From Helicobacteraceae bacterium (lineage in GTDB: Bacteria > Campylobacterota > Campylobacteria > Campylobacterales > Sulfurimonadaceae): DNA of 64,000 nucleotides. Below the pieces are notes generated by a model that was given only the letters and a program-made list of their open reading frames with translations, was not told the DNA's origin and did no database searches. Below are positions 45,754-49,841 of this stretch, piece after piece. The stretch covers positions 1 through 64,000 of the forward strand of contig JAGGTH010000033.1 of assembly GCA_021163845.1 (NCBI GenBank), in the 5' to 3' direction. Made by a program: the position numbers and the translations under genes. Position 1 is the stretch's first letter; each line of letters opens with the position of its first letter.

Positions 45754-46803
45754 TTGGAGAATGATCCATTTGTTATTGGTGGTGTTGCGGTAAAAAGGGG
45801 GACGAATGTGATTATAAACATTGAACTTCCTAAGCTTTATAACACCCCTACAAAATTACCACTAAGAGTGATTCGTGGTAAGAAAGATGGACCTGTCGTA
45901 TTTGTGAGTGCAGCGATTCATGGGGATGAACTCAATGGCATAGAGATCATTAGACGTTTTCGAAAACTAAATATTTTAAAAAAGCTCAAAGGCACAGTGA
46001 TTGTTGTTCCTATCGTCAATGTATACGGGGTGATGAACCTCTCTCGCTATTTGCCTGATAGACGAGATCTCAATAGAAGTTTTCCTGGAAGTTTCAAAGG
46101 ATCTCTTGCAGCGAGGATAGCGAAAATATTTTTTGATGAAGTGGTGAGCAAGTGCTCTTTGGGGATAGATTTACATACGGCATCTATCCATAAATCGAAC
46201 CTTCCTCAGGTAAGAACCAACATTGACAATGAATATACCTTTGCCCTTGCAAAAGCATTTGAGGCTCCTGTGGTTTTACATTCAGAACTTCGTGATGGTT
46301 CTTTGCGTGCTGTAGCCCAAGAAAAAGGGGTGCCTATTTTACTCTATGAAGCGGGAGAAGCGCTTCGTTTTGATGAGCGAAGTATCCGCATTGGAGTCAA
46401 AGGGATCGTGAATGTTTTACGAGAAAATGGGATGCTTCCAAAATCTTTGCATAAAAAAACACTCAAAACTCCTATAGTCACGCGTGAAAGCAGATGGATA
46501 CGTGCAACTGAGAGTGGGATGTTGCGTACCATTAAGGCACTTGGAGATACAGTCGAAAAAGATGAGGTGATCGCGTATATTGATGAGCCACTCGATGATG
46601 TGTTTTTTGAGATACGTTCTCCATTTTCTGGAGTGATCATCGGAAAGTCTGAGATCCCTTTGATTCAAGAGGGGGATGCTATTTTTCATATAGCCGAATT
46701 TAAAAACTTAGAGATGGCAGATAATAAACTTGAGTATTTTCACGAAGATGCAATTGAGCAGAGTGAGTTTTATGAACTTAATAATGAGGAGATCATAGAA
46801 TAA
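45754..46803 (+). CDS. Succinylglutamate desuccinylase/aspartoacylase family protein
   Basis: This zinc-dependent amidohydrolase-like protein of 349 residues is of the M14-related AstE/AspA family. The zinc ligands are visible in AAIHGDELNGIEII (H and E) and in GIDLHTASIHK (H); DRRDLNRSFPG and LYEAGEA supply the substrate arginine region and catalytic glutamate. A C-terminal barrel-like domain (ATESGMLRTIKALGDTVEKDE) resembles a biotinyl or lipoyl fold. The start is TTG with AGGAG upstream, 1 base after rimK. It may deacylate N-acyl glutamate or aspartate compounds, or trim a RimK product; the substrate is unknown. glsA overlaps its stop by 1 base. Confidence 0.88.
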   Translation: MENDPFVIGGVAVKRGTNVIINIELPKLYNTPTKLPLRVIRGKKDGPVVFVSAAIHGDELNGIEIIRRFRKLNILKKLKGTVIVVPIVNVYGVMNLSRYLPDRRDLNRSFPGSFKGSLAARIAKIFFDEVVSKCSLGIDLHTASIHKSNLPQVRTNIDNEYTFALAKAFEAPVVLHSELRDGSLRAVAQEKGVPILLYEAGEALRFDERSIRIGVKGIVNVLRENGMLPKSLHKKTLKTPIVTRESRWIRATESGMLRTIKALGDTVEKDEVIAYIDEPLDDVFFEIRSPFSGVIIGKSEIPLIQEGDAIFHIAEFKNLEMADNKLEYFHEDAIEQSEFYELNNEEIIE

Positions 46804-47726
46804 TGGACTATCAAGCTATATTAGAGGAGATACAAGAGGAGATACAGCCGTTTTTGAGTCAGGGAAAAGTAGCTGACTACATCCCAGCCTTAGCAAAGAT
46901 AAAAAAAGAGCAGTTTGGACTCTCACTGACTCTCTTTGATGGAACGAACTATAGTGTTGGAGCATCAGATACCCTTTTTTCGATACAAAGTATTTCGAAG
47001 GTATTTACTTTTACATTGGCGCTCAAATTTTTTGGTCCAAACCTTTATAAAAGAATAGGGCACGAGCCATCAGGAAATCCTTTTAACTCTCTTGTACAGC
47101 TTGAATATGAACATGGAAAACCGCGTAATCCTTTTATCAATGCAGGTGCGATCAATGTCACTGATGCACTGATTAATTATTATGGAAGTGAAGAGCTTGC
47201 GTATGCTGAGGTCTTAGAGTTTATTCGCTCTATTGCAGATGATAGCTCCATCGTCACGGATGAGCTTGTAGCACAATCAGAGATGGATCACGGACATAGA
47301 AATCTTGCACTTGCAAACTTGATGAAGAGTTTTAAAAACTTAGATAATTGCCCCCAGCGCGTTGTGGAAACTTATTTTAGACATTGTGCTGTAGAGATGA
47401 ATACAAAGATGCTCTCTCGGGCAGTACTTTATTTAGCAAATCATGGAGAAGATCCCATCACCAACAAGATCTATATCTCTGCACAGCAGGCAAAACGTAT
47501 CAATGCTGTGATGCTTACCTGTGGTCATTATGATGCCTCAGGTGATTTTGCTTTTCATGTTGGATTACCTGGAAAAAGTGGAGTAGGGGGAGGGATCATT
47601 GTAGTGGTTCCAAAAAAGATGGGAATTGCCGTATTTGCACCAGGTCTCAACGAGCAAGGAAACTCACTTGTTGGGACGATGGCGCTTGAACTTTTTGCTC
47701 AAAAGACAGGATTATCTATCTTCTAA
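46803..47726 (+). CDS. glsA: Glutaminase A
   Basis: GlsA hydrolyses glutamine to glutamate and ammonia using a serine-dependent beta-lactamase-like fold. The 307-residue protein has the catalytic S-x-x-K in FSIQSISKVFTFTLA, the asparagine region NPFINAGAINVTDAL, the tyrosine in LTCGHYDASGDFAFHVGLPGKSGVGGGI and the closing FAPGLNEQGNS. It is the last gene of the rimB-rimK-deacylase operon, joined by TAATG. It could provide glutamate for the RimK reaction. It converges on the SnoaL-like gene with a 4-base overlap. Confidence 0.96.
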   Translation: MDYQAILEEIQEEIQPFLSQGKVADYIPALAKIKKEQFGLSLTLFDGTNYSVGASDTLFSIQSISKVFTFTLALKFFGPNLYKRIGHEPSGNPFNSLVQLEYEHGKPRNPFINAGAINVTDALINYYGSEELAYAEVLEFIRSIADDSSIVTDELVAQSEMDHGHRNLALANLMKSFKNLDNCPQRVVETYFRHCAVEMNTKMLSRAVLYLANHGEDPITNKIYISAQQAKRINAVMLTCGHYDASGDFAFHVGLPGKSGVGGGIIVVVPKKMGIAVFAPGLNEQGNSLVGTMALELFAQKTGLSIF

Positions 47727-48118
47727 CTACTTAGCTGCTTATAAAGAGAGTTGAGATCGCCAAGAATATTGATACTTGCGATCTTATTATCTCTGATCTG
47801 GATAAAAGAAGCTCCAGAGTAGCAGATTCTATTTCCTGTTGGTGCATAGTTAAAGATCTTTCCCTCATGTGTCCCTGTGTAGGTTACATAAGCAGCGGCT
47901 GTGTTGTTTTCAACAATAAGCATCTCAACTGCATGATAGAGATTTGGAAATGCAGTTGTAAGCATCTGTGCGTACTCTTTAAATCCTTCTATCCCATTGG
48001 CTGTGATATCTAAAGAACCGCGAAACCTTACATCAGGATCGAGAAGGTTTTCTGCTTTATCAAAATCTTTTTCATTCCACATCTTGTAATATGCGTTGAT
48101 AAGTTCTCTGTTATTCAT
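47723..48118 (-). CDS. SnoaL-like / NTF2-fold protein
   Basis: This 131-residue protein of the cystatin-like alpha-beta barrel fold resembles SnoaL polyketide cyclases and related proteins. Markers are AYYKMWNEKDFDKAENLLDPDVRFRG at the start, GFKEYAQMLTTAFPNLYHAVEML, and GNRICYSGASFIQIRDNKI. Members are enzymes, immunity factors or scaffolds, and the substrate cannot be read here. Its ATG follows directly on the stop of the 57-residue repeat peptide (TAAATG), with its RBS (GGAAG) inside the last codons of that gene. The two are therefore translationally coupled and probably functionally linked. Confidence 0.85.
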   Translation of the reverse strand: MNNRELINAYYKMWNEKDFDKAENLLDPDVRFRGSLDITANGIEGFKEYAQMLTTAFPNLYHAVEMLIVENNTAAAYVTYTGTHEGKIFNYAPTGNRICYSGASFIQIRDNKIASINILGDLNSLYKQLSS

Positions 48119-48292
48119 TTAACTTCCAATACCCCATTTTACTTGTCTCGCACCGCAACTTCCAATTGTCCATGTTGACTGTCTAGGATTTTTCCCGACA
48201 CTCCATTTTGATTGTCTCGTACCTCTACATGCACTCAGACGAATCGACTTTTTAGAAGACGCGCTTCCTATTGACCATTTAGATGATTTCAT
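48119..48292 (-). CDS. 57-residue basic Trp-Gly repeat peptide (novel)
   Basis: The ORF track lists a longer frame from 48454 that runs into putP, but the real gene most likely starts at the ATG at 48292. There a perfect GGAGGT lies 6 bases upstream and a TATAAT box about 34 bases upstream. The 57-residue product has five degenerate units of 11-13 residues with consensus RQSKWSIGS: SSKWSIGS, KKSIRLSA, RQSKWSVGK, RQSTWTIGS and RQVKWGIGS. Tryptophans are at positions 6, 30, 41 and 53, and cysteines at 22 and 46. It is strongly basic, with no signal peptide or membrane helix. I know no family like it. It could be a modified-peptide precursor, a nucleic-acid or glycan binder, or an assembling structural peptide. 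The SnoaL-like gene directly follows. Confidence 0.72.
   Translation of the reverse strand: MKSSKWSIGSASSKKSIRLSACRGTRQSKWSVGKNPRQSTWTIGSCGARQVKWGIGS
48122..48280 (-). repeat. Degenerate tandem repeats inside the 57-residue gene
   Basis: The coding sequence repeats at the DNA level too. CTTCCAAT/CTTCCTATT and CCATTTT...TTGTCTCG (plus strand) recur with a period of roughly 33-36 bases, with one unit decayed. This indicates growth by unit duplication while the W-S-I-G core was kept. Confidence 0.6.
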
Positions 48293-48298
48293 CCAACC

Positions 48299-48304
48299 AC
48301 CTCC
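48299..48304 (-). promoter_or_regulatory. Strong Shine-Dalgarno of the repeat-peptide gene
   Basis: On the minus strand GGAGGT stands 6 bases before ATG. It is among the strongest ribosome binding sites in the window and decides the start at 48292. Confidence 0.8.
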
Positions 48305-48325: not shown

Positions 48326-48331
48326 ATTATA
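48326..48331 (-). promoter_or_regulatory. Candidate -10 box of the repeat-peptide/SnoaL unit
   Basis: TATAAT on the minus strand lies between the putP stop and the repeat-peptide start. It would give a leader of about 25-30 bases and allow expression apart from putA-putP. No clear -35 is seen. Confidence 0.5.
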
Positions 48332-48374
48332 CTCACAAATGATATCTTTTGCGCTAAAAAATTTCTTAAAAATT

Positions 48375-49841
48375 TTAGAGGAGTTTTTGCTGTACTTCTT
48401 TGAATATCTCTTTATCTTCCTGGCTTGCTTGTTCACCAAATTTACTAAATACAAGAATCGCTATCCACGCAATAATGAAGCCAGGTAAAAGCTCATAAAG
48501 ATCAAAAATACCACCCTCTAATTGTTTGTAAATAATCACAGTGAGTGAGCCTGCAACCATTCCTGCAATTGCACCAGATCTTGTGATATTTGCATTATAG
48601 AGCGAGAGGATGATAAGGGGACCAAATGCAGCTCCAAAGCCTGCCCAAGCATAGGATACAAGTTGCAATACGCTTGAGTTTCTATCAGTTGAGAGATACC
48701 AAGCGATGATGGCGATACCGATGACCGTCGCACGACCCACCCATACAAGTTCCTTATTACTTGCATCTTTTCTCAAAAAAGCGTTATAGATATCACGTGT
48801 GAGAACTGAGGAGGAGACTAAAAGTTGAGAGTCAATCGTGCTCATGATAGCGGCAAGAATTGCTGCGAGTAAAAATCCTGCGATCCATGGGTTAAATAAA
48901 AGCTGTGTGAGTGTGATAAAGATCTTTTCACTGTCTTGAAGATCCACACCATTGGCAACAACATAAGCAAAACCAAAAAATCCAACTGCAAGAGAGCCTA
49001 TAATACTTAGACCCATCCATGTCATACCGATAGCTTTTGCACGAGACATCTCATCCTCATCACGTATAGACATAAAACGAACGAGGATATGAGGTTGCCC
49101 AAAATAGCCAAGTCCCCAAGCCATAAGAGAAATTGCGCCAATAATAGTGCTTGAACTTATAAAATCGAGCTTATGTACATCTGTTTGCTCGATAATTTTT
49201 AGCGCTTCGCTCACACCACCAATCTCAAAGATCACAACAAGTGGTGTAATGACTAAAGCGAGCATCATCAGTATCCCTTGGATAAAGTCTGTCCAACTCA
49301 CCGCATTGTATCCACCCAAAAATGTGTAAGAAACAATAATGATGCTTCCAACAACGAGAGCTGTGGAATAATCAAGATTAAAAGTCGCTTCAAAGAGTTT
49401 TGCACCACCTACAAGACCTGAGGATGTATAAAGGGTATAAAAAACAAGAATGACTATCGCTGTAACTACACGCAGAGTATTTTTTTTGTCTGCAAAACGA
49501 TTGGAAAAATAATCGGGAATGGTGATGGCATCATTGAGGTAGTGGGTATAAACACGCAAAGGTTTTGCCACATAATGCCAGTTGAGATACGCTCCGATAA
49601 AAAGCCCGATCGCTATCCATGCACCTACCAACCCATCACTATACATCATCCCAGGAAGCCCAAGTAAAAGCCATCCGCTCATGTCAGATGCGCCTGCACT
49701 CAGAGCAGTTACTCCAGGACCAAGTCCACGTCCACCTAAAACATAGTCGCTCAAATCATCTGTTTTAAAATAAAAGTAAAAACCGATGCCTACCATCAGC
49801 GTCATATAAAGTAAAAAAGATATTAAAACTTCAATTTCCAT
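48375..49841 (-). CDS. putP: Sodium/proline symporter PutP
   Basis: PutP imports proline with sodium. This 488-residue SSS-family protein has about 13 membrane segments. Family marks are DYVLGGRGLGPGVTALSAGASDMSGWLLLGLPG near the N-terminus, FLGGYNAVSWTDFIQGILM, and the signature AAIMSTIDSQLLVSSSVLTRDIY, which contains sodium-site serines. It starts directly after the putA stop, so catabolic enzyme and transporter are one unit. The second SSS transporter in the window (14453-15904) is clearly different in its substrate region. Confidence 0.96.
   Translation of the reverse strand: MEIEVLISFLLYMTLMVGIGFYFYFKTDDLSDYVLGGRGLGPGVTALSAGASDMSGWLLLGLPGMMYSDGLVGAWIAIGLFIGAYLNWHYVAKPLRVYTHYLNDAITIPDYFSNRFADKKNTLRVVTAIVILVFYTLYTSSGLVGGAKLFEATFNLDYSTALVVGSIIIVSYTFLGGYNAVSWTDFIQGILMMLALVITPLVVIFEIGGVSEALKIIEQTDVHKLDFISSSTIIGAISLMAWGLGYFGQPHILVRFMSIRDEDEMSRAKAIGMTWMGLSIIGSLAVGFFGFAYVVANGVDLQDSEKIFITLTQLLFNPWIAGFLLAAILAAIMSTIDSQLLVSSSVLTRDIYNAFLRKDASNKELVWVGRATVIGIAIIAWYLSTDRNSSVLQLVSYAWAGFGAAFGPLIILSLYNANITRSGAIAGMVAGSLTVIIYKQLEGGIFDLYELLPGFIIAWIAILVFSKFGEQASQEDKEIFKEVQQKLL

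Follow-up and report, generated by a model that had tools for sequence, protein, structure and literature searches.

Repeat-containing RiPP precursors are short peptides with repeated units that carry Ser, Thr, Cys and Trp. Another described group with a bearing on this work is the SnoaL-like polyketide cyclase/NTF2 superfamily (PF07366, PF12680). For gene expression, Campylobacter promoters follow the consensus TTTAAGTNTT (PMC3824568, PMC7755780). We analyzed a 64,000-nt stretch of DNA (the window) from a Helicobacteraceae bacterium, in which a minus-strand ORF for a basic Trp-repeat peptide (48119–48292, stop codon included) precedes a gene of that superfamily. The ORF has 57 codons, starts at ATG 48292 and encodes MKSSKWSIGSASSKKSIRLSACRGTRQSKWSVGKNPRQSTWTIGSCGARQVKWGIGS. 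The product contains 12 Lys/Arg and zero Asp/Glu residues (net charge +12, pI 11.9), its GRAVY is −0.73, and it has tryptophans at positions 6, 30, 41 and 53 and cysteines at 22 and 46. The original prediction, made from the letters of the DNA, had given the ORF coordinates and product exactly, and its Trp positions, two cysteines and strongly basic charge were also right. The reading frame is open further upstream, to TTG 48454 within the putP-like gene; the Shine-Dalgarno sequence and promoter described below point to 48292 as the probable start.

Four recognizable units of 11–12 residues with the pattern [KR]xSxWxIGS were found in the peptide. Unit 1 is KSSKWSIGS (48263–48289, aa 2–10), unit 3 is RQSKWSVGK (48191–48217, aa 26–34), unit 4 is RQSTWTIGS (48158–48184, aa 37–45), and unit 5 is RQVKWGIGS (48122–48148, aa 49–57), all on the minus strand. 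Five units had been proposed; four are clear, but the one at aa 14–22 (KKSIRLSAC, 48227–48253, minus strand, unit 2) is degenerate, hardly recognizable and doubtful, being placed by its 36-nt register only. The clear units are spaced by 72, 33 and 36 nt; each spacing is divisible by 3, so that the frame is kept. For internal self-repeat, the peptide ORF ranked first among the 96 ATG ORFs of 45–75 aa in the window, with a z score, computed over residue shuffles, of 7.0; the next ORF scored 1.9. The repeat exceeds chance.

The internal repeats permit a coding test without any homologue. The test compared four 27-nt units, which were chosen because the repeat is visible in the ORF's own frame, and it is a within-gene rather than a between-species comparison. 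In that frame, the between-unit BLOSUM sum was 193, a value that none of 60,000 column permutations attained. Differences between the units were seen in 35 codon comparisons, 23 of them with an amino acid change, and equally few changes occurred in 0.3% of column permutations (P = 0.003). dN was lower than dS in six of six unit pairs. In the other two sense frames, between-unit conservation gave P values of 0.6–0.7 (about 0.65), and two to three stops fell among the units. These results are the best evidence that the repeat units diverged as protein in the ORF's frame. This frame-specific constraint argues for coding despite the lack of a homologue, and the ORF is probably a real coding gene for a translated orphan small protein.

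A contrary reading is that the ORF is not a gene, being a non-coding spacer or a wrong-frame remnant of another gene. Its total codon score was lower than that of 99.7% of gene slices, with frame +1 slightly higher, and by eye frame +1 (DNQNGVSGKILDSQHGQLEVAVRDK) resembles a D-x-x-N-G β-hairpin repeat. However, the poor total score is partly due to the odd amino acid content. Synonymous codon choice is compatible with that of genes: it falls at their 19th percentile and exceeds 93% of off-frame slices. In Pfam, frame +1 matched nothing above the cut-off, and the genus yielded no convincing relative of it; neither it nor frame +2 is free of stops or conserved between units. A wrong-frame pseudogene was therefore rejected, and we regard the whole non-coding reading, which the absence of a homologue from all sets searched also favors, as very unlikely.

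Relatives of the peptide were searched widely. None was found in the rest of its own genome, in 99 relatives, 135 species of the genus (judging by gene content, probably Sulfurimonas) or 397 genomes of the phylum, nor in plasmids, phages or viral contigs. Two scans of a species set of 84,980 prokaryote genomes also returned none; both scans require near-exact words of 8–10 residues, and diverged relatives outside the phylum could escape them. No above-cut-off match to the peptide was obtained in Pfam, NCBIfam, PHROGs, PADLOC or PDB, which bears out the original prediction's statement that no described family has such a repeat, as the peptide is outside every family searched. A degenerate Trp-repeat DNA pattern, run against 299 relatives, recovered only the gene itself, simple repeats and unrelated sequence. 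Weak tblastn matches in other species (E 0.001–0.6 per genome) mostly contained stops, and the inspected alignments lacked the repeat; one candidate, PRNSRWSIGACDCSQSRW in genome G078, was merely a 23-residue stretch between two stops. The original prediction had named the absence of a homologous ORF from related genomes as grounds against a gene. No such ORF was found there, but the conservation between the units still argues for coding.

The expression signals were then located on the minus strand. The TATAAT −10 box (48326–48331), which is kept in the aligned promoters of an acidic gene family, and the perfect Shine-Dalgarno sequence GGAGGT (48299–48304), 6 nt 5′ of the ATG, were both present as predicted for an own promoter and ribosome-binding site. 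The earlier reading had missed the −35-like element TTTAAGAAAT (48361–48370), which matches the Campylobacter consensus and contains the Campylobacter-like hexamer TTTAAG at 48370–48365. At the other end, the peptide stop abuts the SnoaL start (TAAATG), and GGAAG (48123–48127), inside the peptide gene, is the probable SnoaL Shine-Dalgarno sequence; here, too, the predicted arrangement was correct. An Rfam search matched no structured RNA family at the locus, and its sole match (E 0.9, on putP) was far below the gathering threshold and was ignored.

These signals could also serve a cis-acting leader ORF, whose translation would bring ribosomes to the SnoaL start through coupling or attenuation, with the peptide itself incidental. 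The junction and the internal SnoaL Shine-Dalgarno sequence fit this reading, as do a hairpin near the peptide's Shine-Dalgarno sequence and the 223-nt 5′ region, which folded better than most shuffles (z −2.8). In the hairpin, GGAGGT is predicted to pair with codons 2–5 (8 bp), but its stability was no greater than that of shuffled sequences. Protein-level conservation between the units is unexpected for an incidental leader, and in relatives the slot is filled by a true 80-aa gene. We consider the leader reading somewhat unlikely.

The SnoaL/NTF2-fold gene (47723–48118, minus strand, 131 aa) matched the Pfam SnoaL family PF07366 with an E value of 1.3e-28, and its match to TIGR02096 was below the cut-off. 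It is convergent with a glutaminase gene (46803–47726, plus strand), and in three relatives (G127, G032 and G055) SnoaL also adjoins glutaminase, indicating orthology of the locus on the glutaminase side at a minimum. On the upstream side, a gene for a putP-like sodium/solute symporter (48375–49841, minus strand) precedes the peptide ORF. putP was not found beside snoaL in any relative examined, and this junction is peculiar to the studied draft assembly; thus, the site where the peptide lies is specific to this genome. The closest SnoaL (83–84% identical; L102, G035:C246) is cut at a contig end, which leaves its upstream slot unreadable, in a genome that is 68% complete.

SnoaL relatives were present in 30 of the 135 genomes of the genus, and the peptide was present in one. 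Among the 28 relatives with upstream sequence, 18 carried an acidic gene of about 80 aa directly upstream of SnoaL (3–18 nt). This family has the pattern MTLQDLxFALELG...KFPHKxKFYED and no Pfam or NCBIfam match, and an HMM built from it did not match the ORF in the first-cistron slot of the studied genome. Family members (L021-L024, L027, L031-L036, L038-L044 and L088-L094) have a near-consensus promoter and are often first in the SnoaL operon. In some of them (L021-L024), the leader that separates the promoter from the acidic gene contains TTTTTTGGCTGTGTTTGATA or a closely similar sequence. The L023 leader also has an inverted repeat, GTTTGATA-N5-TATCAAAC, that might serve as an operator; both features are absent at the peptide locus. 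This genus-wide, unannotated small-protein family, which usually shares an operon with SnoaL, offers a better entry to the operon's function.

The promoter connects the two kinds of first cistron. The block 48370–48314 is 79–84% identical to acidic-family promoters in other species. A DNA search with 48370–48110 gave seven other-species matches with E values below 5e-4, all in the promoter part only, and all seven precede acidic-family genes; one of them (G117) precedes the acidic–SnoaL operon itself. Of the weaker matches, four of eight precede acidic-family genes. An acidic paralogue with the same promoter type is kept in the studied genome (G000:C10:8041-8271; L095 2542-2772), where it has a CvfB-like gene on one side and a TrpB-like gene on the other, and precedes the latter. 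The simplest reading would be that promoter and SnoaL were retained and a different first cistron was brought in. The motif is close to the general Campylobacter consensus, however, so a matching promoter may instead have been acquired independently.

Together, we favor, with a probability of about 0.5 for the explanation as a whole, a real, species-restricted small gene for a basic cytosolic peptide, which leads a two-gene operon with SnoaL and occupies the acidic gene's slot, behind the same type of promoter. Transcription would start from the promoter at 48331–48326, the peptide would be translated from the ORF at 48292–48119, and its translation would be coupled to that of SnoaL. Judging from composition only (+12 charge, spaced Trp, Ser), the peptide may act by binding a polyanion. 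The ligand could be RNA, DNA or an acidic protein, and in the last case perhaps the acidic-family paralogue that is encoded elsewhere in the genome. A more specific version is that a young protein arose by in-frame duplication of a Trp unit of about 12 residues, took over the operon slot and promoter from an oppositely charged protein, and has as its present partner the acidic paralogue or that paralogue's target; this version we hold to be unlikely. If expressed, the favored gene would show clearly how a small gene restricted to one species can be placed under a conserved promoter.

Other functions of a translated peptide were weighed against its composition. A self-assembling structural repeat, with W-x-I β-strands stacking to fibers or sheets, is suggested by the W-x-[IV]-G alternation every 11–12 residues and the Ser/Thr-rich sequence. 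However, AlphaFold on the single sequence gave a pLDDT of 57 with no fold and no strand assigned, the +12 charge opposes self-stacking, and no secretion signal was seen by eye, all of which make this role quite unlikely. A basic, Trp-rich peptide without acidic residues could instead be a membrane-acting, antimicrobial or toxin-like cationic peptide. It would then be one with a hydrophilic GRAVY, no leader, no PADLOC match and no recognizable adjacent exporter or immunity gene, sharing an operon with a housekeeping-type SnoaL gene, and we judge this highly improbable.

The original prediction had suggested, as one of two readings, a modified-peptide precursor, that is, a RiPP precursor, with SnoaL as its tailoring partner. 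The repeated units with Ser, Thr, Cys and Trp are in line with it, but the SnoaL gene occurs in 29 other species without the peptide. As SnoaL is normally preceded by the acidic gene and is present without the peptide, it is not the peptide's dedicated partner. By eye, no RiPP enzyme or other peptide-modifying enzyme was recognized among the translated genes of the window, where the neighbors are putA, putP, glutaminase, RimK-type, desuccinylase-like and other housekeeping genes. The peptide also lacks a leader–core layout and a family match. The precursor idea with SnoaL as the partner is not supported, and we regard it as extremely improbable.

Compared with the described systems, the peptide resembles repeat-containing RiPP precursors in its repeated units, but it has no leader, no maturase or exporter was recognized by eye beside it, and it is not a member on present evidence. 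Only the downstream gene belongs to the SnoaL/NTF2 superfamily, which the peptide does not resemble. Another small repeat ORF was observed in the same genus (L101, G005:C3:122000-124500), built from four near-identical copies of a 23-aa repeat (MELYRTLNHHDGWSGLPDYEIRDNQIFRT...) and placed immediately 5′ of a gene whose start reads as OLD-type ATPase-like. Both are small repeat proteins with a 19-nt stretch in common, but they differ in frame, period and sequence, and their DNA similarity is no better than chance (E 0.27). With the acidic family, the peptide shares the slot before SnoaL and the promoter type, whereas the two are unrelated in sequence: the acidic copy in its own genome has a net charge of −17 and no repeats, and the peptide is basic. 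The sequence is unusual, yet orphan small proteins are an already known kind.
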